A stretch of 64,000 bases of DNA, from contig NC_088300.1 of the NCBI RefSeq assembly GCF_032854445.1, positions 9,610,001-9,674,000 on the forward strand. Direction: 5' to 3'. Origin of the DNA: Liolophura sinensis. Its lineage: Eukaryota; Mollusca; Polyplacophora; Chitonida; Chitonidae. The translations under genes and the position numbers were made by a program. A model generated the notes under the pieces. The model had not been told where the DNA came from, searched no databases, and saw only the letters and a list, made by a program, of their open reading frames with translations. Positions 2,441-56,800 of this stretch are shown piece by piece; the first letter of the stretch is position 1, and the number at the start of each line of letters is the position of its first letter.

Positions 2441-3980
2441 ACACAAACACTCACCCCAAAAAATCTCAGTGTCGAGCATTAAAAAATGTCTATTGTGTAA
2501 GCAAATTACGAATTGATGACATCACAAATTGTGTGAGTCACTCGTAATTTACTGGCCATTGCCTTGTCATGGGAAAATTAGACAGTTGAAATGTGCGTTA
2601 TGTCAATATGATTAAAAAGGGGCTTCATTTTTTACATTATGAAGTCAGGGAATTTTCGCATATTAACATGCGTTCTGATGCACATTTTTATTTTCGGACA
2701 TTCTTTATATTTATCACCCTATCTTTAGATCATGATCTGAAATACGTATAGCTATCCACATATAAACGCATGCAACCAAGGTGCTACTAAGTTCTTGAAA
2801 CTATTTGATCTGACATAGAGGAAAGGTGTCGCTCTGATATTAATACATCATGGACATCAAAACAACTTTTCAAAAAGACATTGAAGCAATTTAGCTGACT
2901 AGGCAAGGAACATGTCATCGGCGTACATACGAAGTTGATTATTTAACACATGGAACGTTGCCAAGTATTTTATCCTCAGCGATAACAGTGTCCACAACAT
3001 GCTCATAAACAGAAAATATATAGTGATGGGGAACATATCCTGCCCTGTCTAATTCCACTGGAAGGACCGAAAAACTCAGAAACGGCACAGCCCAAAGTAA
3101 CTGTAAAAGGTCATTGAATCATATAATAACAAAGAGCAATTTCACATGCAATGTTATGAGGCACCAGGCGATTAAGTTATTGGGCTTATTAAGAGAGTAA
3201 AGAGTCCTTTCCTGGGAGCGATAAACATTAATTACTTCATAATAAAGATGAACGAGGTTCGAAGCCAAGGCGGGAATGAGAAATATATAGTATACATGTA
3301 ATAAGATTCCCTTAATGTAATTTGGGCTAAACCAGCTACTTAACCACATTCACACAACATATGTTATACCATATTTATCTTCTAAAAGGATACTTGTAAA
3401 GGGAGTATAAAGTAACATTGTTTTACATAACAGTTAGTAGGGAGCTCAGGGTGATGTGCAACAGGTGAGTGACCATTCACACCGCAAGTTAGGTCATGGT
3501 AACCAGCGTGGTACCCACGTGCTGCCCGTTTCGCCCACGCGTACAATTAACCTATGACCTTGTCATGCCCTTGAGAGGGCCGTAAAAGGTATTCAGATGT
3601 CAATGTTTTCCAACCAAATGTCACGATATTTCCCAGCCAAGCCAATTTTAGTTGCAAAGGATTTCAACTTTAAAGCTTTGTTAAACTTAGTCAAACACAG
3701 TTAAACCCTGCAAAAACATTTTTTCTGTAACTTTAAATATGTGTAAAACGTCTACTGGTCTAAAGTCAGTGGCATTATCAGTTTTCATTGATTGTTCATT
3801 TTACAAACGCAGACTGAAACATGTGTGGATTAATCAATACCGGTACCTTGTGTTAGATAACATTTTCCCAGATTCGACCAGTGCGGTCATTCACTGACAC
3901 GTTGTCGCCTTACAAACCCTATGAAAAGCCCAAAAGTCCACTTAGGTCTCATAATTCCCTGTCAGTTAACGCGAACCAAC
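2441..3980. other. Intergenic stretch upstream of the secreted repeat protein gene
   Basis: No gene or element is recognised. A TATAAAG at about 3405 lies nearly 580 bp before the start codon at 3981, too far for a simple promoter call unless there is a long or spliced 5' UTR. A non-coding upstream exon cannot be excluded. Confidence 0.5.
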
Positions 3981-5315
3981 ATGGGGCGTTCCGGAATGAT
4001 CACCGCAGGTTTGCTTATAATAGTCTGCGTTCTGGCCAAGTTAGACACGGTGATATCGGAGATTCCAATTGGATCAACATCAACAACTGAGCCAAGACCA
4101 ATAACTGACCCAAGGCCAACAACTGAGCCAACACCGACAACAGACTCAACACCAAAACTAATTTCCGATGTATGGCATACGTATTGGTCAACGAAAAGTA
4201 GTAGACCGACAAGCTGGCCAACAACCGGAACCTTGTCAACAAGCAGACGAACGAGGCAGTATGGAACAAATGATGACATCTGGCGGCCAAGCTCAACCAC
4301 AACAACAGCAAGGCAATACGGAACAAATGATGACATTTGGCGGCCAAGTTCAACCACAACAACATCAAGGCAATACGGAACAAATTATGACATTTGGTGG
4401 CCAAGCTCAACCACAACAACATCAAGGCAATACGGAACAAATGATGACATTTGGCGGCCAAGCTCAACCACAACAACATCAAGGCAATACGGAACAAATT
4501 ATGACATTTGGTGGCCAAGCTCAACCACAACAACATCAAGGCAATACGGAACAAATGATGACATTTGGCGGCCAAGTTCAACCACAACATCAAGGCAATA
4601 CGGAACAAATTATGACATTTGGTGGCCAAGCTCAACCACAGCAACATCAAAGCAATACGGGACAAATGATGACATTTGGCGGCCAAGCTCAACCACAACA
4701 ACAGCTAGTAAATACGGAACAAATGATGACATCTGGCAGTCAACCCCAACGACAGCAAGAACGACAATGCCGCCAAGACTACCGTGGATTGCCAGGAAAC
4801 CTAACTTCAATTTACTTCACCCGATCTTTGCTAAGTTACTTTGGCTTTTAAATAAAAATTACCATGGGAATCGCAAAGTGAGTACAACAACCCCATCTAT
4901 GAATACCACAACTGTTTTGGCAGCCACTGACGGCAGCAACACATGGGTGCCAGATATGCCCGGAAACCAAACGGATAACCACAATATAACAATGCTACCG
5001 ATTCAAGGAAACAAGAACACAACAATGCTACCTACTGAAGGAAAACAGAACACAACGATGCTGCCTACTCAACAAAACAAGAACACAACGATGCTACCTA
5101 CTCAAGGGAACCAGAACACAACGATGCTACCTAATCAAGGAAACCAGACCACGAATATGTCTTCTGTCCAAGGAAACGAGACCATGGATATGCCATCTAT
5201 CCAGGGAAACCAGACAATTCAGTTCCCATCTTTAACTGGTAACGAAACCATTCCAACTGTTAATCTGACGTCAAATGGCACGGGAAACCAGACACAGGAC
5301 TTTCTTATCGTTTAA
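3981..5315 (+). CDS. Predicted secreted Thr/Asn-rich repeat protein (single exon, 444 aa)
   Basis: I do not recognise a named family. The chosen start gives an N-terminus MGRSGMITAGLLIIVCVLAK, a typical signal peptide; an in-frame ATG at 3921 would add 20 residues in front of it and is less likely. After the signal peptide come Thr-Pro-rich repeats of the TDPRPTTEP type. Next are nine copies of a 19-residue unit (about residues 92-250) with core QYGTNDDIWRPSSTTTT; three pairs alternate between DDIWR and YDIWW, so the DNA repeat is a 57-bp unit duplicated as 114-bp dimers. The last 110 residues are Asn/Thr-rich, with at least ten N-glycosylation sequons in repeats such as GNQNTTMLPTQ. No transmembrane segment follows the signal peptide and cysteines are almost absent. 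This suggests a secreted, heavily glycosylated extracellular or matrix protein (inference). It is intronless as read. The first sense-strand AATAAA downstream lies in a SINE remnant. Confidence 0.6.
   Translation: MGRSGMITAGLLIIVCVLAKLDTVISEIPIGSTSTTEPRPITDPRPTTEPTPTTDSTPKLISDVWHTYWSTKSSRPTSWPTTGTLSTSRRTRQYGTNDDIWRPSSTTTTARQYGTNDDIWRPSSTTTTSRQYGTNYDIWWPSSTTTTSRQYGTNDDIWRPSSTTTTSRQYGTNYDIWWPSSTTTTSRQYGTNDDIWRPSSTTTSRQYGTNYDIWWPSSTTATSKQYGTNDDIWRPSSTTTTASKYGTNDDIWQSTPTTARTTMPPRLPWIARKPNFNLLHPIFAKLLWLLNKNYHGNRKVSTTTPSMNTTTVLAATDGSNTWVPDMPGNQTDNHNITMLPIQGNKNTTMLPTEGKQNTTMLPTQQNKNTTMLPTQGNQNTTMLPNQGNQTTNMSSVQGNETMDMPSIQGNQTIQFPSLTGNETIPTVNLTSNGTGNQTQDFLIV
4240..4745 (+). repeat. 57-bp coding minisatellite (114-bp dimers)
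   Basis: Nine imperfect 57-bp units lie inside the secreted-protein ORF. The unit is a multiple of three, so other frames also stay open through it on both strands. One unit has lost a codon (TTT instead of TTTT in the threonine run), which keeps the frame. Confidence 0.9.
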
Positions 5316-19977: not shown

Positions 19978-20578
19978 TGCAATGATCCTACAGAGTAAGT
20001 GTTACACTCTTCTTAAGTATCATGATCATTACGAACACCTTCAGAACTTCCGTTAGACAAAGACAGACAGGTCATGACAACCCATGGCCCTCCAAGCCAA
20101 TGATCCTACAAGGTAAGTGTTACACTCTTCTTAAGTATCATGATCATTACGAACACCTTCAGAACTTCCGTTAGACCAAGACAGACAGGTCATGACAACC
20201 CATGGCCCTCCAAGCCAATGATCCTACAAGGTAAGTGTTACACTCTTCTTAAGTATCATGATCATTACGAACACCTTCAGAACTTCCGTTAGACAAAGAC
20301 AGACAGGTCATGACAACCCATGGCCCTACAAGCCAGTGATCCTACAAGGTAAGTGTTACACTCTTCTTAGGTATCATGATCATTACGAACACCTTCAGAA
20401 ATTCCGTTAGACAAGGACAGACAGGTCATGACAACCCATGGCCCTACAAGTCAATGATCCTACAAGGTAAGTGTTACACTCTTCTTAGGTATCATGATCA
20501 TTACGAACACCTTCAGAAATTCCGTTAGACAAGGACAGACAGGTCATGACAACCCATGGCCCTCCAAGCCAATGACTC
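19978..20578. repeat. Five near-identical 119-bp tandem units in the likely XRN2 3' UTR
   Basis: Each unit runs from AATGATCCTACAAGGTAAGT through TTACACTCTTCTTAAGTATC and AACACCTTCAGAACTTCCGT to ACAACCCATGGCCCTCCAAG. Units differ at only a few positions, so the expansion is recent. Confidence 0.95.
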
Positions 20579-23900: not shown

Positions 23901-26900
23901 GGAAACCCAAGATCATCCGCAGGTTAAAATCACTAAAACAGTCAATTGTAGAAAAGCACTTTGCTTCAGGTGAGAACCCACACACCTATACTGCCATCAA
24001 CATTTCTACACTCAACAGTTATTCACCCTTATTAACTTACTGCCACTTGGAAATTTGGACAAGTTTTTCACCACCAGGCAGCATACCATCTTCACAAATC
24101 ATTTGAATTTATCAATTCTGTGCTTTGTTGAAAGAGACCTGGTTTTTCTGATACCAGTGAAGCGTGACAAAAATCTGTGTTAGCTAAGGACCCCGCTTTT
24201 TGCTCTAGGGGGAATGTCTTTTTTAATATTCACATAACAGGGTGTCAACTGCTGAGTCTCGCATTTCCAACAAACAAAAAAAAAGTACTCCCAGAATACC
24301 CGCTATCACTGATCTTCCACACGGGCAAGTGAACCATATATAGTCTCCATTTGTCATGTATATGGTATAGTTTGGCTTGTCTTCACTTTCCCGCTCTGTT
24401 CAGTTATAGCATTCTCACAACTACCCTATGTTACCTCAACATTGCTAAGGTTTCCATTGGTCAAAATTGACTCATTTGGGCTATTGTCAAAGGACTTTGG
24501 AAATTTTATGAATTTTGTGTGAGAAACATTGGATGTTTAATACATGGCAGCTACAGAATGTTCCGTAAACGATTAGTCTTGTGAATATGACCCAAGTACA
24601 TATATTCATTCTCTCACATATCCGTTGAGAGAATTGTGTCTTACCCTGTCCATGTTGACGGCCATAGCCCCCTCCCTGACCTTCTTGTGAACCCAGACCA
24701 TGTCTGCAAACGAAACAAACAACAGTCATGACAGGAAAGTTACAACGTAATGTTTTTTGTAAAGCAAATTTTGGGTACTCAGGCCTTGCAGCCTTTATAT
24801 TAAAATCCAGTTCTAAATCCACCAACCAAAATACAGCTCTAAATAGACCACCCAGATCCAGCTCTACACCCACGACCCAGCTAAAACTCTCTAACCCACC
24901 ACCAAGCCCCAGTTCTAAACCCACGACCCAGCTATATACTCGCCCGCTAAATTCAGCTCTAAATCCACCACCCAGATCCAGCTCTAAATCCACCTGCCAA
25001 ATAAAGTTCTAAACCTGCCACTCAAATACAGCTCTAAATCCACCACCCAAACACAGCTCTAAATCCACCACCCAAATGCAGCTCTAAATCCACCTCCCAA
25101 ATAAAGTTCTAAACCTGCCACTCAAATACAGCTCTAAATCCACCACCGCTATAAAAACAACACCCAAACACAACTCTAAATCCACCACACAAATACAGCC
25201 CTAAATCCACCACCCAGGTCCAGCTCTAAATCCACCTCCCAAATAAAGCTCTAAATCCAGTACCCAAACACAGCTCGAAATCCACCACCCAAATACAACT
25301 CTAAATCCACCACCTAAATACAGCCCTAAATCCACCACCCAAATGCAGCTCTAAATCCACCACCCAAATACAGCTCTAAATTCATCACTCAAACCAAGCT
25401 ATACAGTTTCAAAAAAAAGTTGAATGACCAATGCTAATCAGTGATACTGCTCAAGTCACATTTTGTTGACTAGGCAACAGCTACTAAGAACACTTTTTTT
25501 GATATCATAAACACCATCTCCTCTCCAACTGTTAGCTGCCCTACACAAACAAGGATGTCCGAGACCCTACACTCATAGGTAAAGACTACATACAGACACA
25601 TAAAACTATGACTGCCTCTATAGTGCTATAAAAGTTATATCGAGAACAGACGTTTTCAGAATACTATTGTTCAGAAACCATTCTGTCTCCTGCCTGAGGA
25701 AGTTTGTGGGTAGATTTGGTTATCCCCAAAAGAAGAAGAAATTCAGACTACATAATGCAGTGATTTTGTAAACTTTTCCTATTATCTTTCATGCCTAATG
25801 ACACAAGTAGAAGAAATGACAAATTTGTAAAGACTTGCCTGATAAATCGGTTTGCTGTAGAGCTGTCCCTCCCACCCCTGTGACCGAAACTTTTAGTGAA
25901 GCCCAACTGAGGACGGAAGTTATGGCCCGGATGTCTGTTGTTGAAATCCTCAGGTTTGAGAACTTTGTCTGGCATTCTGTAATGTAGAATAAAGAATGCA
26001 TTATCCACTGGCATTCTGTAATGTAGAACAAAGGATCCATTAGCCACTGGCATTCAGTAATGTAGAATGAACAATGCATTTGTCACTGGCATTCTGTAAT
26101 GTAGAATGAACAATGCATTAGCCACTGGCATTCTGTAATGTAGAATGAACAATGCATTAGCCACTGGCATTCTGTAATGTAGAATGAACAATGCATTTGC
26201 CACTAGCATTCTGTAATGTAGAATGAACAATGCATTAGCCACTGGCATTCTGTAATGTAGAATAAACAATGCATTATCCACTGGCATTCTGTAATGTAGA
26301 ACAAAGGATCCATTAGCCACTGGCATTCTGTAATGTAGAATGAACAATGCATTAGCCACTGCAATTCTGTAATGTAAAATGAACAATGCATTTGCCACTA
26401 GCATTCTGTAATGTAGAATGAACAATGCATTAGCCACTGGCATTCTGTAATGTAGAATGAACAATGTATTAGCCACAGACTTTAACACACAATGAATCTA
26501 CTTGAAATTACAATAAGCTTGGCAGAGTAGGTTAACTGATCATTTTATTGGTGCTTTCAAATTTTCATAATGTTCTGGTAAACAGGCTTCTTTTATTTTG
26601 TGTAAATTCTTGGTAAAGATATTCATTAAATAGTTTTCAGAGCAGTGTTACGCCATTGGTGGTGCCGCTCAGTCATGCTTTAAAAAATGTACAAGTTTTT
26701 GTGACACTTTTGTGACACTTATGATTGTTGGATGAATGCACCAAAGAAACTTTGATGTTGTTACGTCCCAAAATCCAAGGGAAAAAAGCAGAGGGGTTTT
26801 GAACAAATTACAGGCTGTTCAGATATATCAGTTTATTTCTGATCAAACTTGTGCTACAAATTGTATACATATGTATAAAATAAAAAAAAGAATGTATCAC

Positions 26901-29900
26901 ATTCCTCTCCTCTATCAAACACCTTTGCCATTTCACCTCTGAAGTACATTTACTTTTCCCGAGATCCTGAACCAATAAAGAGATTTTTGTGTGCAACATG
27001 TGTGCAACATTTTCCAAATTTGTAAAAATCCATAACATACCAAATGAATCTGAGCTTGTCAGTTAGACACATGTATACTCACTTTGCATTGGGTAAGACC
27101 TTAGCCTGGAACAAATATCCCTCCTCATACTGTGGATCTTGGTATTTCACACTGAAAAATATAATATGCAAATGTTTAAGGAAAATGGTCGAAGAAGATC
27201 TCCTCGAACTGAATATTTCTTTCCAAGTCCAGACAGGCAGTAAATATCCTTTTTGACAACAGGATAAGTTGTATTGTAACACATACTGAAGGTTGAGTTC
27301 TTGCGTTACACCCTAAATCCTAAGTCTGGGACAACTATGGGGTGTAGAGAAATAATTTGCAGTTTTAAGAGGCCTGCATATTTAGTGTCACAAACAAATC
27401 ATTTTTTTTCCACTCAAAAAAAATGCGTTTGAGGTTGAAGATTAACAGTAAACTAAAATATCTGGTGAATAGAAACATCACTTCTGATGAGATATTCACA
27501 GGCAGATGTCTTAAGCCCTCAGAAAACTGATAAGCAGTGGAATTGCATAATGCTTTTTTGTCACAATTAACATTCTCCAAGCAGTGCAACATGGTGGACT
27601 TACGTTATTGTTCTGTTCTCTGTGAGATCAGGCAGGTGGCTTGGTATTGGAGATTTAAACGTACTGCAGATAAAGAAAACACGAAACACAAAATTTCAGT
27701 TCATTTTCCAGGACAAAACCAATCGCTATGCTTATTCTGACAAGTGTTCACCAAAACATGTTGGCTTATAATACATCATTAATATTCTGGTGATAAACAA
27801 CGAAATACACAATTAGTCAACCAGAGTAAAGTTTTGGCCAGCTTCATAAAATACTGATGATAGTAATTACTTAAGTGAGATCTGCTACTTGTAACTTGAC
27901 ACTGGAGGTGAAATCAGAGATCGACCTTACCCGCTTGTCATCACAGCAAACTCGTCACACGCAACTTTGCCGGCCATTCCCTGAGTTAGCTTGGCATTAA
28001 TATCGAGCATCTGAAACACAAGGAGTATCAAAATCAATAGCTTAAGGTCAACATCAGGCTTGAAATCAGATATCAAAATCACTGGCCGTGTACATTTTGA
28101 CTGTCCATCAAATGTCCATACAAGCATACAGTGAATACCCATCAAAATGCCTTGACAAGCACAATTTGTATGTCCATAAAATGCCTGGACAAGCACAATT
28201 CGCATGTCATCAAAATGCCTGGCCAAGCACAATTCGTATGTCCATCAAAATGCCTGGACAAGCATAACTTGTATGTCCATCAAAATGCCTGGACAAGCAC
28301 AATTCGTATGTCCATCAAAAGTTCAACATAAGCATGCTTCATTCAGACAGCTCTTCTTAGCAGAGTCCACTGTGTAAGTTTGAAACTTGACTGCTTGAAA
28401 ACCTCAGAATCTTTTGTTCATAAGAGCAGGTGTTATGGCCAGAAAATCCACAATGACTGACAGCAACCACACTGGATTATGTTACAAAATCAATCCTAAC
28501 CATTCTGGTTGACCTCAAGTCAAATGGTAAGAATAAATTTCATTGGTTCAAATCTGTTCACGATGTCTTCTTCACAAGTGTGACAGCCAGAGAGACAGAC
28601 AGACACACAAACAGCATTTCCATGTCCCTTCCCCACTCGGCAAGGCAAAGAACAGGAAGCCTGAAGACAAATGTATGGTAAAGTATTCTTTATCGCTGTA
28701 GAGATAAGTCCTATCTGACTACTTACCTCCTCAGTTCTCTCCCCTTCATACAGACCCTCCAGGAAGCTAAAGACTGGGTGTGACTGACCCACAAACAGGC
28801 GGTCATTTCCTCGCACATTTCTTTTCTCTGAAAGACATACAAACAGTGTTAACATAGCAATCGCTCACAAAAATTTGGTTAGATAGATGCACTTGCCACT
28901 ACTGACCAGATACACCTCAGGTAAAGTAGCCTGCTAGATCATGCCATTATTGACCAGATACACCTCAGGTAAAGTAGCCTGCTAGATCATGCCACTACTG
29001 ACCAGATACACCCCAGGTACAGTAGCCTGCTAGATCATGCCATTATTGACCAGATACACCTCAGGTAAAGTAGCCTGCTAGATCATGCCACTACTGACCA
29101 GATACACCTCAGGTTAAGTAGCCTGTTAGATCATGCCACTACTGACCAGATACACCTCAGGTTAAGTAGCCTGTTAGATCATGCCACTATCGACCAGATA
29201 CACCTCAGGTAAAGTAGCCTGCTAGATCATGCCACTATTGACCTGATACACCTCAGGTAAAGTAGCCTGCTAGATCATGCCACTATCGACCAGATACACC
29301 CCAGGTAAAGTAGCCTGCTAGATCATGCCATTATTGACCAGATACACCTCAGGTAAAGTAGCCTGATAGATCACGCCACTATTGACCTGATACACCCCAG
29401 GTAAAGTAGTCTGTTAGATCATGCCACTATTGACCTGATACACCTCAGGCAAAGATGCCACCTAGATCATGCCACTATCGACCAGATACACCTCAGGTAA
29501 AGTAGCCTGTTAGATCATGCCACTATCGACCAGATACACCCCAGGTACAGTAGCCTGCTAGATCATGCCACTATCGACCAGATACACCCCTGGTAAAGTA
29601 GTCTGTTAGATCATGCCACTATTGACCAGATACACCCCAGGTAAAGTAGCCACCTAGATCATGCCACTAGTGACCAGATACACCCCAGGTAAAGTAGCCA
29701 CCTAGATCATGCCACTACTGACCAGATACACCCCAGGTAAAGTAGCCACCTAGATCATGCCACTAGTGACCAGATACACCCCAGGTAAAGTAGCCTGCTA
29801 GATCATGCCACTATTGACCAGATACACCCCAGGTAAAGTAGCCTGCTAGATCATGCCACTATCGACCAGATACACCCCAGGTAAAGTAGCCACCTAGATC

Positions 29901-32900
29901 ATGCCACTATCGACCAGATGCACCCCAGGTAAAGTAGCCTGCTAGATCATGCCACTATTGACCAGATACACCCCAGGTAAAGTAGCCTGCTAGTTTATGC
30001 CATCAAATGGCAACAGAAACACAACAAAAAGGTTTTGTTGGCAGTATCACGATGACTTCCCACCGTGAAATTTTTATATATGAAATGGTTCTTAAAGACA
30101 AAAGTATATATAATTTCACAATGCAAAACGTTTGAAACTTAGCATCAAAAGGTAAAATTTCATTCAATTTAATCTGAATTCCATCGTTTCCAAAAGTTTC
30201 TCTAAAGGGACACTTGACCAGGTAAACCTCAACATTACTGACCACTCCATTTTACCTATCTTTCTGAACAGAAGGTCTCTTGAATAAATCTGGACACTCA
30301 GAAACCCAATCTCCAGTATCAAACAGAATAACTAGCAGACACGTGTATGTATGGAAAAATCAAAATTCAAGTTCAAATTGATTTTACAAGCTGATGAACG
30401 TAAAATTCTTGCTTACTTTCATCCTCAGTGAGATCTGGATACACAGACTGTAACGCATCCTTCAGTCGCTTCTCATCCACGAACGGTAACAAGGCTACAC
30501 CTGTGCAACAGAACAGAGATCATTGCTTAACACTACTCTCACCATCAGGAGCAGGCCACCTATTACAACCTTTTAATGAGTTTTATGGGGTATCAGGTCA
30601 TTCACAGTCCAGTTTCTAATATAAATACATTTTGTAGAAATTACTGACATTATCAAAAATCACATACACATTTACAAAAGAGGTAAAAATGTATGAAATT
30701 CTCGGCCTGATTAAGACAGAAAAATACTTGTGAGTATACATGTATCAACTGCTCAGGTGTTTCTGCAAAATGAAGGCTTACAGGGGTCATTTTGATGACA
30801 AAGAATTCAAATGATACCTGGCTGTTAGAATTACACAAAAATAAAGTGAGCGTGGACAAGTCATATCTTTTTATTTTAAAATTGTACTAAAGAAATAGTT
30901 GCTTTAGGGCTTTAACTGACTGGTATTAATACAAAGGGGAATAAACTATTTTAATCACACTGGGAATGTTTAGCAGAGGGAGTGCTTCTATGCTAAAATA
31001 TTGGAACAATTCATGAGAAACCTTAAATATATCATGCGAGTCTATATGAATAAAGACACCAAATTTGATCTTTTAAATATGATTATTACCCTAACACTAA
31101 TTAAGTCATTTCCAATCTTGACCTACCTTGCCAAGCATATTTCTTTCCATTCAAATCTATTTTGAAATCCACTGGGTAAAAATCTATAATAGGTGATTCC
31201 TAAAATGGAAAATGATGCAATACATAAATTGATTTGCATATTACAATGTACTTAGTCACAGTACAAAAATGTTTCTGACTATTCAACCTTGAACAAATTT
31301 TCACAATAACAAATTCTTCTCTGCACGTAGAAAAAAATAGATCTAGGCATTTAAGCAAAGTGTTTTAAACTAATTTATTACCTAGTCAATTAGAAAAACT
31401 TGATTTTTAGGAGACAACATACTTAGTATTATATGGATCTGAACGATAGATCTGATTTTAAAACCCAACAAATAGTATAATACAGACCGGATCCTCCATG
31501 AGTCTCTGCCAAGTGAGGGGCAGGTGCTGTTTACTGGCTGCTGGGAACACGCTCATCAGCTGTTCCAGTGGCTTGAACTATGCAACAGACAAGAAATAGT
31601 TTGTGGGTTAATGTATAAAGTTGGACACAATCTGTCCATAATAAAAAAAATTGACAGCATTTGAGATATTTATGTAAGTTTAGAAAAGAAAGAAAAAATT
31701 AATAAAAAAAAAAAAAAAAGAGGAAAATTTAATATTGGAAACATGTAAGTACAGTATACATCTTTAACATGAAGAGTGACAAACAAAATATACGGTGTGA
31801 AATCTTATTCTTTTTTTTGTTGAAGATTTTCAGGTTGTACTAAAAAAGAAACTCACTGGTTCTGTGTTCCTCTCAAAGTCATTAGGTAAGTCCCCGATAT
31901 TCACAAAATCTGAGGCAAAAGGGGCATAATGGTATGGAAAATACCACTTCCAGGATGCACAACCCTGTCAAACAAATAATGGCTTACATGATGTCCTCAC
32001 TAATGCTGATAGGTGAGCCCATCTGACACACACGCATGTAAATGTGATGTATATAGCATGGAACAAACCAGTCTTACATCAATGCAAACATGGAACTGGT
32101 TAACATTATGCCAACATGTGTGAGAAATCTCTCTTCACAGGACAGGACCATAATATTACACCCTCATTCCTCAGCCCTTTCATATATCAATGAGCAGCTT
32201 TCAGTGAGATTTATAGCCATAGTCAAGAATTCTTCACTTATGTAAAGGTGTTCAGTTTACGGGTGGAGGAACCACTTCAAACTGGAGTGCCCAGCATAAA
32301 ACACAAAGTTACTGATGAACTTTTCAACAGAAAGAGTACAGATACTTGTCTATGCATGTACACCATGTTGGTGGAAGATGAGTGGTCTTTAAGGAATGTT
32401 TGAGTGTGCAAACTGCCACACAGACACTGTTGACTGCTTAACTGTCAAAAAAGGCCTCATACGCAGCGAGAGCAGGAGAAAATATTATTACCAAACCATC
32501 ACAGCAAATATGTTATCACAGGTCAGAAAAATATCGAACATGGAGGCAAATAATGAGCGATTCCATTACAGTGAGAGTCCTGAAGACAAAATTGTGTACC
32601 AACCTGATAGTAGTAGCGCAACACCCAACATAAGCCCCTCACATAATGGTTAGCCTGCGGACAAAGAGAATGGTAATATGAACACAGTGTCAAACATAAG
32701 CCCCTCACATAATGGTTAGCCTGCAGTCAAAGACAATGGTAATATGAACACAGTGTCAAACACTCACATTCCTTCTAAAGTAGAAATTTCACATTAGGCA
32801 GGGTAATCTTACCCTCAATTCTACCAATAACTCAGAAGTTAGGATCGAAGGTAACAACAAAATCACAATACTTACCACAGTATGTCTGAATTCTGCATCA

Positions 32901-35900: not shown

Positions 35901-38900
35901 TATCATGAAGCAAATCAATCTTGGCTTTATTTAATCATGGCGTGAATTCTAATTTATCAGCCAACAAATTAACAACACACAGGTAGAAGGGTTTACAGTG
36001 ATTCAATGATGATGAAAGAATCACTGATGATAATATACAAGATATTTTGTAATCATGTCAAGACTTGTACAACAGAACAACACACTATTATATATTTATT
36101 CATTTATTAATTTGATTGGTGTTCTACACCATACTCAAGAATATTTTACTTATACGACGGCAGCCTGCACTATTGTGGGACGAAACCCGGCTGAGCCCCG
36201 GGGGAAACTCACAACAAACTATTAATGTAACACCGTGGACATGCGCACATAAATATCAGCCCATACCATTAATACACCTGTGATAATGATGTCACTCACC
36301 TGTGGAGCAAACTGTCCCCTGGGCGTCCAATTAGGCCTGTCCTTAAACTACACAAATAAATAACATTCCAATTAGTGTAATTCAACAAAATAATGTTTAA
36401 TTTACAGGCAAACATAGGCACACACTAAAAATGATCACAGATGAAATAAATTCTAGAGGGAACGAAGTTTATAGTGTACAATGAAATTTGTTTTCAAATT
36501 CAAGAAGAGCAGGACTTTTTACAAATTAGTATGTAACACTGCTCACCTGTTTCAGCCTCTTCTTCTTTTCTTTATTCCTCCTCCGGAAATTAAGCTGTAA
36601 ACAATTTTTACCTCAATAAATCCAAAACATGCAACAAGGATCAACCGCGTGACTGTGTATGGCAGAGTGCTTTGGAATTTTACACTAATTTAACATTGAC
36701 CAGGTTTATGGGTGAAAAAGACCGGAGTCCGAGAAGTAAAATACTGACTTCCACAAGCCAAGGTGCAAGTGTGGTGTATGTTGGGTGAACTTAAGCTAAA
36801 CCATTCAAGAGATAGCAGGTTTACAAACCTTTTTATAAAATTTAACTTAAAAGGCCCTAATGGCCTTGAAGGAAAAAGTCCAGTTAAAAACAAAGGGGTT
36901 CTTCCTCATGACAAAGTGTATGTGTGGTATAACTGAAATACCACAATACTGCAAGCTGGGTGAATATGGCACTACCCCGGGGATATTATGTTTGCAAGGC
37001 TTTTATAAAATTTAACTTAAATGACCGTAATGACCTTGAAGAAAAAGCTCTAGGTCTCTGAAAATCAATAGCGTTCTTCGTTATGCCAAGGCATAGATGT
37101 GGTGTAAGTTTAGTCAACTTGGGCTAAACCATTCTAGAGATAGAGCGTCTACAAGCATAAGAAGAGGCGGACAGACGAATGCTGCCTGCTACGACAATAA
37201 AAGACATCTTTTGAGTGTGTTACGTTTAAGTCTTTCAGGAGTTAGTTTGAGACGTAAAAAACATACAAAAAAAAGGTTGCTAGAGCAAAAAATTGCACCT
37301 TTGTCTTCAATCACAGCCTGAACAAAGTTGACATATGAAAGTAAGGCAGTTTTCACTGAACTAATTGTACATCCAGCTTAAGGTCTGGAGAATATGGTAA
37401 AGACTCCGCACCACAGAACGGTAACCAGAGATAATCATATACAAACAGCGCAGCAATTCTTTCGTTCTTACATAAGTCTTTCAATAGTGACAGCTGATAA
37501 AAAAAATTAAACAGAGTAAACCAAAGTTTTGAAAGAAAAGAAAAACAGTCCAAATACAATGTCAGAATCCAAATCTGGTCAAACTTTACAGAGCATAGTA
37601 CATAAAAAGTGGTGTTTAATAAACTTGTAAACTGGACAAAAGAAAATGGCCTCTGCAAGGCTCATGCTGCACCCACACCTCATTGTCTCTTCTCGTCTTA
37701 AAAATCTGGTCCTCCACTTCCCCCAGGTCTGAAAGAGACAAAGAAACAGTAGTCTCTAGTTCTAACAACAAGTACTCTAGCTCTAACAACAGATACTCTA
37801 GTTCTAACAACCAATACTCCATTTCTAACAAACAATACTCTAGTTCTGACAACCAATACTCTAGTTCTGACAACCAATACTCTAGTTCTAACAACAAGTA
37901 CTCTAGTTCTGACAACCAGTACTCTAGTTCTGACTACCAGTACTCTAGTTCTGACTACCAGTACTCTAGTTCTGACAACAGATACTCTAATTCTAACAAC
38001 CAGTACTCTAGTTCTGACAACCAGTACTCTAGTTCTGACAACAGATACTCTAATTCTAACAACCAGTACTCTATTTCTGACAACCAGTACTCTAGTTCTG
38101 ACAACCAGTACTCTAGTTCTGACAACCAGTACTCTAGTTCTAACAACCAGTTCTGACAACCAGTAGTCTAGTTCTAACAACCAGTGCTCTAGTTCTAACA
38201 ACCAGTACTCTAGTTCAAACAACCAATACTCTAGTTCTGACAACAGATACTCTAATTCTAACAACCAGTACTCTAGTTCTAACAACCAGTACTCTAGTTC
38301 TAACAACCAGTACTCTAGTTCAAACAACCAATACTCTAGTTCTGACACCAAAGATTATATGGATTACTTTCACAAGTCTCAATATTTATTTTTCTAATTG
38401 ATTGCTTTGTTAAATGCTTCACAGAATACAGTAAACACCTAAGTCCATCACTGGTGATAATAACTGTTAGCGTAAACTTGCTGCAATGTTACGTGCTGCA
38501 AGGAAAACAAAGGTGACATGATTTTCTGTGTTAACCTTACCTGCCATAACAAGCTGGACCCTGCTCAGGTTGACTACACCACTGTCTGTCAAGTAGCCCT
38601 GTCAGGGAAAGTCATAGTGTACTTTATACATCCATGTACATGAGCATCAGATAGGACACACTACCAACCCTATAAACGTTTCAACAAATCATCAGTGTAC
38701 ATGCTGAGATGAAACTGATATTAGGTTACCAATGAAACAACATTTCCTTGTCTTGCAATGTGACTGACTGCACACTGTTTAACATCCTCCTCAAAATGAC
38801 CGTCAGTTTTATGGGTGGATAAAACCTGAGTGGCCAGCTAAACTCACCAACCTCTGGCAAGTTACAAACAAACTTTCCACAAGGTATTTAGATGTATACA

Positions 38901-41900: not shown

Positions 41901-44900
41901 GTTTTAATCCATTTACCCTACATTGTCTTAAAGTAACTTGGGTAAAACAAATGACAGCGTTACACTGACCTCTCTGTTTCCTGATGTAGTCCATGATTTT
42001 GTGCTCTCCCTCCCCGGGTACATTGGCGTCTGACAGGATCACTTTGATGTTTTTCCAGCCCGAGTCATTGTTCAAACGATCATGAACGTAGTACCGCAAA
42101 CACTCCGCTAACTTGAACATGAACGGCGTGCCCTGCCAAGCGTAACATTAATGATAACTATAATAAAATGATCTGATAACCAAAAAAGGGTGATAAAGAT
42201 CTGTTTACTTGTAGCTAGAATATTCTCTTTCCAGGTGAACCAACATGTAGCTTTAAGGACTCCAAATCTTATTAAAGACAACGTAGCTAAATGTATTGGA
42301 TACTCCAACCACTGCACAGTATACAACAGGAAAGAGTGGAAATAACTTCTGGTATTTACAGCTCATGCCCATTTCTCATCTACTCAAAATAAATTTTCAA
42401 AAATCCAATCCAATCTTGATTTACAAATCTTCTTTTAGATCAAACATACAGTATCTTCAAAAGACACCATTCTCTGCTTTGAGCTAGCCACACCTGACCG
42501 CATCCCAACACCTGACCACTCCTAGACATCTGACTACACCTCAACATTTGACCACACCCCAACACCTGACCACACCCCCACATCCTAATATGTGACACCC
42601 ACATCTCAACGCCTGACCACACCCTGACATCTGACTAGACCTCAACATCTGATCACACCCTAACACCTGACCACACCCCCACACCCCAATATGTGACACC
42701 CACATCCCAACGCCTGACCACACCCCGACACCTGACCATACCCCGACACCAGACCACACCCCAACACATGACATGACCACACCCCAACACATGACCACCA
42801 GACCACACCCCAACACCTGAGCACTCCCAGGACATTCCAAAATACTAACAGGGGTAATACAGTTACTGTCAAACTTCTCAGAGGCCGGCTTTTCCGGGGG
42901 AACGTACGCTCCTTTGGCGAGAAGTTCTTCTCTCACTTTAGTAATTTCTTCTGCTTTTTCCCTGTAATAATAATGTGAAGTACACGTAAATGATTAGCAT
43001 GTTAGAACCTAATTAGCTGATTACAGTCAAAATACTGAGCTTTCTCAGTTACAATGTAAATAAATACTGTTAAATCATCAGAAACTCCTTGTAAGCTGGA
43101 GTCCCACAGATAAACTCCATACCTCACATCTTTAATTCTTTTTACATAAGTACACCTGAGCACCACAAATTTTAACACACAAAAAAGTTACCTCCATGAA
43201 TCTGAATTAGATTTTTTATGTCAAACTTACTTGGATTCTTTCGAGGCTCTAAATCTTCTGGATCTCTGCTGGTTCATTTTAGCACGTGGTGCCTGTTGTC
43301 AGGAAAAATAGGACTATTTGTATAGTACATGTCCCATGGGAGTTGTAAGAATAACATCATATTCTGTTTCTTACAAATCTGCAGCTGAAAAAGTCTTCTT
43401 TCCAAGCTTACTTCGGAAAATAAAACTGCTGATGTATTAAAGTATGCTTTACTAAATCCTGCATTCTCCTGATGTTTACATCTCATGAATTAATGAACTG
43501 AAGTTAGAACATACCACACCGTCAATCGCCATGTAGAGCAACTTCCTAGGTCGGACAATGGAGAAGATTCTGTCAATGTATTCAAATATCAAAACCATCA
43601 TCTCATCCTCATTCTTGGGAGCAGGCCTGAAACAACACATGTATGATTCAAAGGTACGATTAAACTACATCTCCTAATTCTTGGGAGCAGGTGTGAAACA
43701 ATGCATGCATGATTCACACGTACGATTAAACTACATCTCCTAATTCTTGGGAGCAGGTGTGAAACAACACATGTATGATTCACAGGTACGATTAAACTAC
43801 ATCTCCTAATTCTTGGGAGCAGGTGTGAAACAATGCGTGCATGATTCAAAGGTATGATTAAACTACATCTCCTAATTCTTGGGAGCAGGTGTGAAACAAC
43901 ACATGTATGATTCACAGGTACGATTAAACTACATCTCCTAATTCTTGGGAGCAGGTGTGAAACAATGCATGCATGATTCACAGGTACGATTAAACTACAT
44001 GTCCTAATTCTTGGGAGCAGGTGTGAAACAACACATGTATGATTCACAGGTACAATTAAACTACATGTCCTAATTTTTGAGAGCAGGTCTGAAACAATGC
44101 ATGCATGATTCACAGGTACGATTAAACTACATCTCCTTATTCTTGGGAGCAGGTGTGAAAAAATGCATGCATGATTCACAGGTACGATTAAACTGCATCT
44201 CCTAATTCTTGGGAGCAGGTGTGAAACAACACATGTATGATTCACAGGTACGATTAAACTACATCTCCTAATTCTTGGGAGCAGGTGTGAAACAATGCAT
44301 GCATGATTCACAGGTACAATTAAACTACATGTCCTAATTCTTGGTAGCAGATGTAAAACAACACATGATTTACAGGTACTTTACTATTAAGGTAGTTTAC
44401 TATTAAACTACATCATGTACATGTAAATGCAGAATCTGTGCAATGTGTGATTTACAAGCACAATTTAACTACAACCGGACTTTTTCTTATACATCTTACT
44501 TTTATGTTTTCAGACTAAATCAAAAACAAATGTGGTGACAAATATGTAACAAAAGAGGAAATCACAAACAGTTAAGGATCTCATAGAAATATACAGAAAT
44601 GTGCTTGTAGTGTGTGAATACCCCCACTTCCCCAGCCGATGAGGCAAAGGGGCATAACTCTGCCAATTACAATATGAACATATTTTTTCCACACAATTAA
44701 CCAAGCTGGCATGGTGTTGTCCAGGACATGGCTTACTTACCTGTCTTCTGGATGACAGCATGGGTGAATGATGCCGTTCATGTCCAGGTACAGGTTGTCA
44801 AACTCCACCTCATTTGGGTTAGACTGACTAGAGTCCACTGGAGCCTTTACATCTCCAACTTGTTTTGGCTGGAGACCAAAAAAATTTATTTGATTAATTT

Positions 44901-51200: not shown

Positions 51201-53769
51201 GGTGGAGGGGTGGGGGGGAACCCACGACCATCCACATGTTGCTGGCAGACTTTCCCATGTACGGGCAGAGAGGAAGCCAGCACGAGCTAGATTAACTCAC
51301 AGGGACCGCGTTGGTGAGAGGCTCCTGGGTTATTGTGCCATGCTGGCGCGCTAACCACCTCAGCCACGGAGGCCCCCAGTACTTTTTGTAATATATCATA
51401 ATGCGTAGACTGTTTGTTCACAACAGCATTGAGAAGTCTCAACATTAAAACCAATATTCAACAAGCAAGTACTGTAAGTACATTCTTTTGTTTCAGGTTC
51501 GTCTAGCAGCGTCAATTGCCACCCGCAAGTTTTTACAATCTCTGCCCTCAGATGAAATCCGAGGACAGTTCTACCCAGTGCTAATTCCTCGTATGTGCCT
51601 GAACAGGTCAGCAATCTCTCCGTGCTCGTCATAGTTCTTTTCGCTCAAAATTATCCGTAACTATATCTAGGTCGATTGACATATTATTTATCAGGGTTCT
51701 CAAAATTTCAAATAATATGGTAGCCCCGCCCGCTCATTTGTATTTTAACTGTGTGCAAATTGAATTGTTAAGCTTTGAGAAATCATGACTACTTCTGTAG
51801 GAAAAACAGTTATTTAGTTTTAACACCTTTCAAAAACTTTTGTTCTTTTAGATATTATGTGGCTGAAGGTGTAAAGATATTCTCACAGGAAACTTGGCGT
51901 CAGATAACTCAAGGGGAAGGGAAGCAACTGGTGGAAAGGTACATGCCTCAGGTGGTATGTATGAGCTATCTCCCTTGATGGGATTGGCGCGAACCATGAT
52001 TTAGAGGGATGTTTGAGAAACATTTTAACCCTGACAAGTTTCGTTTAGTATCTTATAAAGGAAAGTAGTGTCTGAAAACTTTGTCATTTTTGTTTTGGGT
52101 AAGCGCCTTTGAAATTATCAGTAACCAGTATTTCATCAAAACTTCAACGTAAAAAGACATAAAGATGCCTTGCATGTTGTGTGTTGTTTTAGTCTTTTAA
52201 TGTAATTTATTCTCAAGATAATTGGATTTAGGACGTAATTTATAGGGTTTAAAGATGTTGGAAAGACAGGAAAAAGAATTTGTGTATTAATACCAACTAT
52301 TGTGTGTTCAGGTGGAGTATTACATTGAACAGTCAGAAGCTGACAATCATGCTGTGAGGGAAGCAGCCTGTGCCTGTATTGCTGAGTTAGGACATAAGGT
52401 AACATGAGTTAGGACAAGGTAACATGAGTTAGGACATAAGGTAACATGAGTTAGTACACAAGGTAACATGAGTTAGGACACAAGGTAACATGAGTTAGGA
52501 CATACGATAACATGAGTTTGTGCACAAGGTATCATGAGTTAGGACATAAGGTAACATGAGTTAGGATGTAAGGTAACATGAGTTAGGATATAAGGTAACA
52601 TGAGTTAGTACATAAGGTAACATGAGTTAGGACATAAGGTGACATGAGTTAGGATATAAGGTACCATGAGTTAGTACATAAGGTAACATGAGTTAGGACA
52701 TAAGGTAACATGAGTTAGGATATAAGGTAACATGAGTTAGGATATAAGGTAACACGAGTTAGTACACAAGGTAACATGAGTTAGGACATAAGGTAACATG
52801 AGTTAGGATATAAGGTAACACGAGTTAGTACATAAGGTAACATGAGTTAGGACATAAGGTAACATGAGTTAGGATATAAGGTAACACGAGTTAGTACATA
52901 AGGTAACATGAGTTAGGACATAAGGTAACATGAATTAGGACATAAGGTAACATCACACAAACCTCGCCTCTAACATTGTCCAGATCTCCTTTGTAACACT
53001 ACAAAGGGCTAATATCAAATGTATATGTGTATCATCGGAGGGGCATTTATAGCATTTAGCATAGCTACTTTGTATCACAGTAATATCATACAGACCTCCA
53101 GGATCAAACCCAGGTTGGGTCATACCAAAGACTTTAAAAATGGCACCTTTCACAGCCTCGCTTAGCACTCAGTAATGACAGTGATGGCACCACTTTGGTG
53201 ACAATTTTTGCTATTTGTCACATTGTTATGTCATTGTTTTATAAAGTCAAGCCACTTACAAAGGTATACACATTGATTTGTGTGGAATGAAAATTGTCTT
53301 GTCATAATTCCTGATCATACCACCGGGTTATTTTAAATGCTTGAGGAGATAAGGATTGCTGTTGTTAATCTAAATGTCCTGTTATCATGTCAGAGCTATC
53401 TTGTTTTGTTATAGCTGGACAAGTCAGTGGTCAGTCCTTACATCCCCAAACTGCTAGATGCATTAATTGTCTGTTTCAATGATGACAGCTGGCCTGTCAG
53501 AGATGGTAAGATTTTTGACATAACACATTAAATAGGTGGTGTAGAAATCTGCAACTGTACATGGCTATTTCATAGTTGATATATTTTCACACTGCTGTAA
53601 TACTCCTTAATATCAAAACAACACAAGTTTTATGAAAATTTCTTCTTGATTTGGTCCAATTTTTTCTCCGCCCATCCTGGTAGATGTGATTCTGTCTTGT
53701 GAATTGCAAACAGATAGTGTCATGGCCTGCTTTCTTCATGGTCTATTCCTCCACCACCTCATGAAGCAG

Positions 53770-53806
<37 letters not shown>

Positions 53807-56800
53807 TGATATTTATTCAATTTGAGGTTGTTTTTTTTTTGAAAGAAAAAATTTACATAAACTCAATTTGAAGATATCAAACAATATGGAACATTTTTGT
53901 AACAATCTTGGTGTATCTATACATGTATACAATGTTCCAATATTACAGTTGTACCAAAAGGCTAATCAACTTCAGTGCTGAATTTGTCATAATGAACAAT
54001 AGTATCAGAAGGATGATGGACTGTATCTGTTTGGACTGAAGATGATTTTCATGTAAAATTAGATCTAGAACAGCACGCTGTAACTAAACCTTCAAGTAAA
54101 CAAATTTACTCTTTTTGATAACTCCTAATAATGTAGGTATTTCATATGAGTGTATGATGTGAACCACGAGAAATAGACATTCTTTTTCATAATGTGACAT
54201 ACATATATATAATACTTTGCCTGTAATACACAAATTTAACTTCTTCGTTATGCGGACCCTCGAAATATCCCAGAAGCATCTGCAAAGTATTTATTTTTAT
54301 CTCAGTATTTAATTAAATCGCGTTCTGTCGTACCTTCCTGGTCACACCTGTCACAGTTTGGGTACTCATTGACCATCACTCTGGACAGATACTTATCTCA
54401 TGGATATATTAGCGTGCAAAATCTTGTATTGCATTGATTTCACTTTGTTGTTGACACCAATTTCATGAGATAAAGGCCTATAACCTTGTTAATGAAGCAA
54501 CTTTATCAGTTATCTCCTTTTATATTCTCAATTTTCAGCTGCTTGTGTGGCATGTGGCAACTTTGTGCAGTGTTTTCCACAAGAATCTAAGTAAGTGAAT
54601 CTGAACTTATTTGTGGTATTGAAACATTGCAGTAATGCATGAGCACATACCCACTGTTTTAGCTTTATGTATTTGTGAGTCGTATTTGTCATGGATGACA
54701 GATGATGAACTTTGCTGGCTTTGATGAACTTGGATGGCCTGGGAGTCTATTTTATCAAACCTCACTGAACTGCCAGGAAGAGTAAACTAGGGGCATTCTT
54801 ATCTCAACCCATAAGACATGTCTTAAGAAGGTTTAGAAATATTTTTCCTTGTCTTGAAATGGCCACAGTTTCAGTCCTGAAAACATTGTTAAATGTTTGT
54901 CATAATGCCTTTTTAAGTGATGCAAAATTAAACTTTTAGATTAAATGTTTAGATATGAAAATTAATTTTTTTATTTGATGCCTTCCAAGAATTTGGTTGG
55001 TAGAGCGTCCGCTTCGGGACTGGTAGATCCAGGATCAATCCTTGATCGAGTCACACCTAAGACTTTAAAAGAGGAAGTTGTAACTTCCTCGCTTGGCGTT
55101 CAGCATTACGGGGATAGTGCAACGACTGGTTGACCCATATCAGTATAATGGCTCGGGCGGGGCGGCTTGCTTGCCTTCGGTAAGTCGTCTCAGTGAGGCA
55201 GCACTAAATAAAAGAGCGGTGGAAATCCGTCCTGCAACAAGGAGGCACATTACACGTATATGCACCCTAATGATTCCTTCGTCGTCATATGACTGAAAAA
55301 TTGTTGAGAACGACGTTAAACCCCAAGCACTCACTCACTCCAAGAATTTGGTCAGTGAATGTATACAATTTTTTTCCCTCAGGGATTCCATGCCTACATT
55401 GTACCCACTGTTCTTCAACAATTTACAAGACAACATCCCATCTGTGAGACAGGGTGCTGCTCTGGCCCTAGCTAATGTTCTCAAAGCATATGGTGAGTTT
55501 ACTCCCGTGTATGAGTTGGTCTGATGCGTATGAGTGGAACTAATGTTTGCTCCTGTTTATGAGTGGAACTGATATTTACTCCTGTTTCAGTTGAACAGAT
55601 GTTTACTCCTGTGTATGAGTGAGACTGATATTTACTCCTGTGTGACTGGAACTGATGTTTACTCCTGTGTATGGGTGTGACGGATGTTTACTCCTGTGTA
55701 TGAGTGTGACTGATGTATACTCTTGTGTGTGAGTGTGACTGATGTGTACTCTTGTGTATGAGTTTTACTGATGTTTACTCCTTGGAATGAGTGGGAGTGT
55801 TTACCCTTGTGTATGAGTGGGAGTTATGTTTACTCTTGTGTATGAGTGAGAGTGGTGTTTACTCTTGTGTATGAGTGTGACTGATGTGTACTCTTGTGTA
55901 TGAGTGGAACTAATGTTTACTCCTGTGTAAACATCACCGTGACTGATGACATGGAACACTTGTGGCGTGACAATACAATGACGTGGTGAAATGGGGCCTC
56001 ACCCAATAAAATGATTTCAGTTTGCGCATTAATTCAGCCTCGCAGGGTTTAAATTACATATACCTCTTGAGGTATATACCTCGTCTGCAGCTCTTGACAA
56101 GTGTATGTCAACATTTTAATCCGTTTGATCAGCCGATGGCATTCGAGAATCATGGATGACCTAGGGACAGCATTATTTATTAATGCGATTTCTGGGTACA
56201 ACACACAGGCTGGTCCTAAAAATTGGTATTAAAACAGCAACAACGAAAAATTAATGTTAGTATGTTATGAAGAGAAAGTAAAATATTAGCTACTTATTAC
56301 ATGCATATATTTTCCAGGGGACGAGAGTGCTAAAATAGTAATAGCTAAAATCAAAGAGGGTCTAGAGGGTGTAGCATCCCAGCCAGTGACCGCTGAGAAG
56401 TACGGGGATCTGGAAAAGGGCCCTGCGACTTACGGAGTTGTGAAGAGAGCCAGGGATAATGATATGGATCTACACACAGACAAACAGGTGAGAGGTGTGA
56501 ATGTATGAAGACACCTTGAGAACCTGAAATTAACAATCATAGTGGATCTAACCATGCTTCTGAGAATACCAACACCAACAAAAAATTAGAATGGTGTAAT
56601 TTTTTTTATACAGTCATGTATCTTTTTACTTGAAAAGGAAAAAGTTTGAATATGTTCAAAGTAGGAATATATGATGAGATTTATTCACGGTGAAAACTTG
56701 TTCCCATGGATACGAGATTTGTCTTTCAGTTCCTTGCTTCATTGTAGAAGCATCTTTCACATGGAGATTTTCCAGTTTGATTTGAGTATATTACAAGGTA

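Follow-up and report, generated by a model that had tools for sequence, protein, structure and literature searches.

A junction-spanning, mirage-type minisatellite at an XRN2 splice acceptor in the chiton Liolophura sinensis

In amphioxus, tandem duplications of exon-intron boundaries, named 'mirages', have been described in Adh3, in the globin genes BflGb6 and BflGb9 and in troponin C, with similar repeats in PGBD5; regular splicing is reported or inferred to be kept, as RT-PCR (reverse transcription PCR) suggests, while length instability is noted and unit length is variable (PMC3087553, PMC3902484). It was proposed there that introns may be gained by way of mirages, through tandem duplication (PMC3087553). 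Here we describe an array in a 64,000-bp stretch of the genome of the chiton Liolophura sinensis (assembly GCF_032854445.1, contig NC_088300.1, positions 9,610,001 to 9,674,000; called the window below and numbered from its first base), in which thirteen copies of a 39-bp unit lie across a splice acceptor of the XRN2 gene. It belongs to the junction-spanning minisatellites of the 'mirage' type, a kind already published, here in a new host. We consider it very likely that this array and others like it arose by neutral tandem duplication across junctions, in a genome rich in minisatellites, and that the proximal copy works and the others are mostly ignored.

The chiton arrays resemble the amphioxus mirages in having a unit that spans the exon-intron boundary and a variable unit length. 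The XRN2 unit holds 31 nt of intron and 8 nt of exon and is present in 13 copies; at 39 bp it falls within the 10 to 160 bp reported for mirages, as do the other spanning arrays described below (22 to 140 bp). Many units keep the splice dinucleotide AG or GT, namely 11 of the 12 upstream copies in XRN2 (here called decoys) and 114 of 142 decoys over 11 arrays. The difference is one of host and not of anatomy: mirages were described in a cephalochordate, whereas the arrays reported here belong to a mollusc, where a small sample of one genome yielded 12. A second comparison is the minisatellite of human IFI6 (6-16), whose repeat units are described as alternative donors giving three mRNA species (PMC4526556). 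Both arrays have repeat units that bear splice signals at the gene's splice junction; the IFI6 units lie on the donor side and are used, whereas the XRN2 array lies on the acceptor side and its further copies are only putative acceptors. Tandem acceptors of the NAGNAG type have AGs a few bases apart. They share with the XRN2 array the presence of several AGs near one acceptor, but in XRN2 whole modules of tract and AG are repeated every 39 bp. Intron gain by duplication of a proto-splice site also involves tandem duplication around a junction, and was suggested as a later step from mirages (PMC3087553), but no new intron is seen in the XRN2 array. Among the listed titles and abstract openings of the open-licence minisatellite literature on molluscs, chitons and splice junctions, we found no report of junction-spanning arrays in a mollusc; the available part of a cone-snail intron paper describes microsatellites in introns and no junction-spanning arrays (PMC3862624).

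A tblastn search with human XRN2 as the query gave a partial model of the gene, which occupies the minus strand with its ATG at 48034 and its C-terminal portion around 23.2 kb. The exon that follows the array (25839..25976, minus strand) is about the 27th coding exon of this partial model; the first-pass annotation had called it exon 29 and had placed its start at 25976, inside a 13-copy, 39-bp array. Its acceptor reads CATTACAG/AATGCC, where the slash marks the splice junction. The upstream exon (27083..27151, minus strand) ends in VLPNA plus AA, with the donor AAA/GTGAGT, in a phase that fits the acceptor at 25976, and the joined sequence aligns ungapped to LPGAR/KPAAVLKPSDW of human XRN2. 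Because this junction is ungapped, 25976 is the expected normal acceptor, with indirect support for undisturbed splicing here, and the exon start proposed earlier is upheld. The same exon closes with a GC-type donor, ATCAG/GCAAGT (25834-25839).

Tandem Repeats Finder (TRF) reports a single array at 25969-26476, with 13.0 copies, a period of 39 and 91% matches. A 21-base core occurs 13 times at exact 39-bp steps, allowing at most 3 mismatches, and not once in 100 shuffles. Both results bear out the array as first proposed, with tblastn confirming the gene. By units, the array runs from 25969 to 26475 on the minus strand, and the minus-strand consensus of the unit is TGGCTAATGCATTGTTCATTCTACATTACAG/AATGCCAG: a pyrimidine-rich tract, then ACAG, then the first 8 exon bases, an arrangement like that of a 3' splice-site module. 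The unit nearest the exon holds the real acceptor. ACAG is kept in 12 of the 13 units, and the count of 11 intact decoys given by the first-pass annotation agrees with ours. A branch-like CTAAT lies 25 bases 5' of the exon start in 8 of the 12 decoys, whereas the real unit has ATAAT instead. In the first decoy unit (26008..26046, minus strand) the AG is intact and the exon start would be 26015, 13 codons upstream in frame. The second (26047..26085, minus strand) has ACTG instead of ACAG, and the same single base change creates an in-frame TGA, so that the loss of AG and the stop noted earlier have one origin. At one tract position the real unit shares a C with units 26008 and 26281, in contrast to the G of unit 26242, its nearest relative. 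Two pairs of units, 26281/26242 and 26008/25969, have variants in common at an offset of seven units, which points to block duplications inside the array.

This patterned difference among the units also argues against an assembly artefact. The published assembly of this chiton, which has since been renamed Liolophura sinensis (PMC12441733), comprises 609.5 Mb in 632 scaffolds, with an N50 of 37.34 Mb and a mean HiFi read of 8,347 bp (PMC11068029). The array, at 508 bp, is far shorter than such a read, and a search of the assembly with it gave one match; an artefact is therefore extremely improbable.

Translation from acceptor 26015 inserts 13 residues in frame, as the first-pass annotation had stated, and a putative XRN2 isoform longer by these residues is possible on the basis of the sequence. 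Translations from acceptors 26093, 26132 and 26444 all reach the in-frame TGA of unit 26047-26085, in agreement with the earlier claim that longer extensions are terminated, and the remaining seven intact decoys share this frame and also read through that unit. A weight matrix built from 22 other XRN2 acceptors, whose median score is 7.3 when each is left out in turn, gives 5.5 for the real site at 25976 and 6.8 for each of the decoys 26015 and 26288; scores fall to between 4.3 and 5.1 for the other intact decoys and to -1.2 for the unit with ACTG. No intrinsic feature therefore marks 25976 as the strongest site.

These properties bear on a functional explanation, in which 26015 is used to good effect, XRN2 has an isoform with 13 additional residues, and the length of the array tunes the ratio of the two. 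The intact AG, the open frame, a matrix score above that of the real site and a CTAAT at a plausible branch distance all suit 26015 to such a role, and IFI6 is a precedent for repeat units in use as splice sites. However, the 13 residues are translated intron sequence, they interrupt a segment that aligns ungapped to human XRN2, and the other ten of the eleven intact decoys run into a stop (three of the ten having been translated). We regard this explanation as unlikely.

The window contains another three arrays that lie across a junction: two at XRN2 acceptors (43626 and 32654) and one at the donor at 52398 of a gene encoding HEAT repeats. At the third coding exon of XRN2, a 66-bp array (43605..44381, minus strand; TRF limits 43606-44367 with 11.5 copies, widened by eye) spans acceptor 43626 and has 22 nt of exon in its unit. 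Here the AG is kept in only one of ten scored decoys, the other nine reading AC, and both translated decoy readings hold in-frame stops. A 66-bp duplication of 2.1 copies (32627..32762, minus strand) spans acceptor 32654; its decoy at 32720 has an intact AG, and its use would add 22 codons in frame with no stop. On the matrix both 32654 and 32720 score 13.3 with the real site included in the matrix; with it left out, the real site scores 8.3. On the plus strand, a 22-bp array of 26 copies (52383..52953) spans the donor of the HEAT-repeat gene exon 52312-52398, which ends in ACIAELGHK at AAG/GTAACA; AAGGTAACA is present in 19 of 22 parsed pieces, counting the real unit, where some pieces comprise two copies.

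Two more arrays abut a junction only. The 29-bp array at 55528..55929 (plus strand), first read as spanning and then reassigned, starts just within the intron of the HEAT-repeat gene after the donor CATATG/GTGAGT, and the 21-bp array at 37745..38351 (minus strand) stops 17 nt short of XRN2 acceptor 37728, on its upstream side. A 118-bp array at 19980 with GTAAGT was rejected as a spanning array, no exon being seen alongside it. Elsewhere in the window, a 484-residue open frame at 3861-5315 contains two arrays with units of 57 and 33 bp, both multiples of three, and resembles a repeat-rich protein. Searches of PDB with the XRN2 C-terminus and the HEAT-repeat gene gave nothing useful.

We then considered how common such arrays are in 60 loci of about 3.2 kb (numbered with the prefix L), cut around kinesin and myosin motor exons; these are best-scoring matches and not a random sample. 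Of 132 kinesin matches listed, 56 were copied by hand and 53 lay within the cut loci, as did 45 of 81 myosin matches. After matches with internal stops or close to a locus end were dropped, 68 exons (35 kinesin, 33 myosin) passed the filters and gave 115 refined junctions, which were placed by profile matches and splice consensus rather than by transcripts. The loci overlap in 14 pairs (178,411 distinct of 194,526 bases), and the coverage figures therefore count some bases twice. TRF arrays with a period of at least 10 cover 11,174 of 64,000 bases in the window and 16,958 of 97,848 in the kinesin loci; the figure is 11,839 of 96,678 in the myosin loci under a stricter filter. Junction-spanning arrays were found in 8 of the 60 partly overlapping loci, at acceptors in L004, L006 and L050 and at donors in L001, L019, L041, L044 and L048. 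An automatic rule placed 6 of the 115 junctions inside a spanning array, one of them (L002, acceptor 1079) being ambiguous and set aside; L019, L044 and the L001 donor were absent from the junctions used by this rule and were added to the eight by hand. With the four in the window this makes a dozen, and the chiton seems to be richly supplied with arrays of the mirage type.

Two of these arrays are of individual note. In L004 (20-1201), a 27-bp array of about 43 copies spans the acceptor of a kinesin exon, with AG in 28 of 38 scored decoys, and in L044 (2339-3021) the 140-bp donor-spanning unit includes 113 nt from a myosin exon, the greater part of which is thus copied downstream. In L056 (1615-1917), an array whose unit is similar to the real donor GGCAACAT/GTGAGTAT begins about 60 bp beyond that donor and was not counted; its first copies are degenerate, and it is possibly an old mirage. 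An apparent overlap with a junction in L030 proved to be an intronic array. The molluscan haemocyanin family gave 8 genome matches, all in one cluster, as suits a mollusc, whereas a search for the GFP family, which bore on amphioxus as a possible host, had no match; the latter is weak evidence, its control being empty as well. Of the sampled sequence, about 12-17% lies in TRF arrays, against 0.08% for simple repeats and the like in the published repeat table, where 14.04% is unclassified (PMC11068029); the minisatellites may sit in this unclassified part.

The number of spanning arrays gave a first impression of enrichment at junctions. Under a neutral model, in which every array is seeded by a single unit duplicated at a random position of its intron, the 8 XRN2 arrays with a TRF score of at least 80 in 27 introns (intron limits partly set by hand) lead to an expectation of 1.56 spanning arrays, against 3 seen (P = 0.17); without the array at 25976 the values are 1.45 and 2 (P = 0.44). 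For the array of 42501 a unit of 18 was chosen, and longer periods would raise the expected number. In the coverage profile of the sampled loci, which excludes the three hand-added arrays, arrays cover 6 of 115 junctions at the junction itself and 15 of 114 at an intron depth of 240 bases, and none of 115 at any tested point between 24 and 60 bases inside exons. Since the XRN2 count is within chance and the profile has no peak at the junction, junctions do not look like hot spots, and the impression of enrichment was rejected. Junctions are left unprotected from arrays, in contrast to exon interiors. An active birth of minisatellites at junctions, by mutation linked to transcription or splicing and giving more spanning arrays than chance, is very unlikely, even though four spanning arrays in one window and eight in 60 sampled loci might suggest it.

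The first-pass annotation had also raised strong selection on the choice of branch point or acceptor, and a related explanation is that decoy splice signals are harmful and are removed by selection. Several arrays would fit this: the decoys are dead at acceptor 43626 and in L001, and the decoy donors of L041 are weaker, with none of seven printed decoys having the GTGAGT of the real site. In the pooled data, however, the dinucleotide is kept in the 114 of 142 decoys given above (11 spanning arrays, leaving out the array at 52383 and five poorly aligned L004 copies). Of 284 positions in decoy splice dinucleotides 29 (10.2%) differ from the real unit, as do 786 of 6492 (12.1%) other unit positions, a coarse comparison in that copies within one array are not independent. 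There is therefore no general excess of inactivated decoys; the earlier suggestion of strong selection is not borne out, and selective removal of decoys is quite unlikely.

Neutral duplication is thus the reading that we favor, and in XRN2 it would have proceeded as follows. A 39-bp segment comprising 31 intron and 8 exon bases was presumably duplicated in tandem and then expanded into the intron by further duplications. The unit adjacent to the exon stays in place, which preserves the reading frame as well as a functional acceptor. The 11 intact upstream copies would be silent or seldom used; the most probable reason is exon definition, by which the donor of the exon would be paired with whichever acceptor lies closest. 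Any low-level use of the first decoy at 26015 would give 13 extra residues, while use of decoys beyond it would lead to the TGA and to a product that is probably degraded.

Some observations weigh against this reading. The real acceptor scores lower than decoys 26015 and 26288 (5.5 against 6.8), and the real unit lacks the CTAAT present in 8 of 12 decoys, so that a decoy may be used. By analogy with human IFI6, repeat copies can be used as splice sites (PMC4526556). Finally, decoys are nearly all dead in two arrays, with AG lost in nine of ten at 43626 and GT lost in all three at the L001 donor, which could be the result of selection; one change spread by homogenization explains each of these arrays.

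A bolder proposal is that thousands of junctions in chiton genes lie in unstable minisatellites, a number extrapolated from our small sample, and that a fraction of in-frame copies is used, generating protein length variants continually and feeding the gain of introns and exons. We think this rather unlikely; if true, array length polymorphism would change XRN2 in steps of 13 residues at the array described here and of 22 residues at acceptor 32654. Should mirages prove as frequent in this chiton as they are in the sample, they would no longer count as a peculiarity of amphioxus, and a single genome would offer many natural experiments in which the spliceosome chooses the exon-proximal site among similar ones, in one case among some 30 to 40. 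Ordinary RNA sequencing could then test the rules by which the proximal site is chosen, as well as intron gain through tandem duplication.
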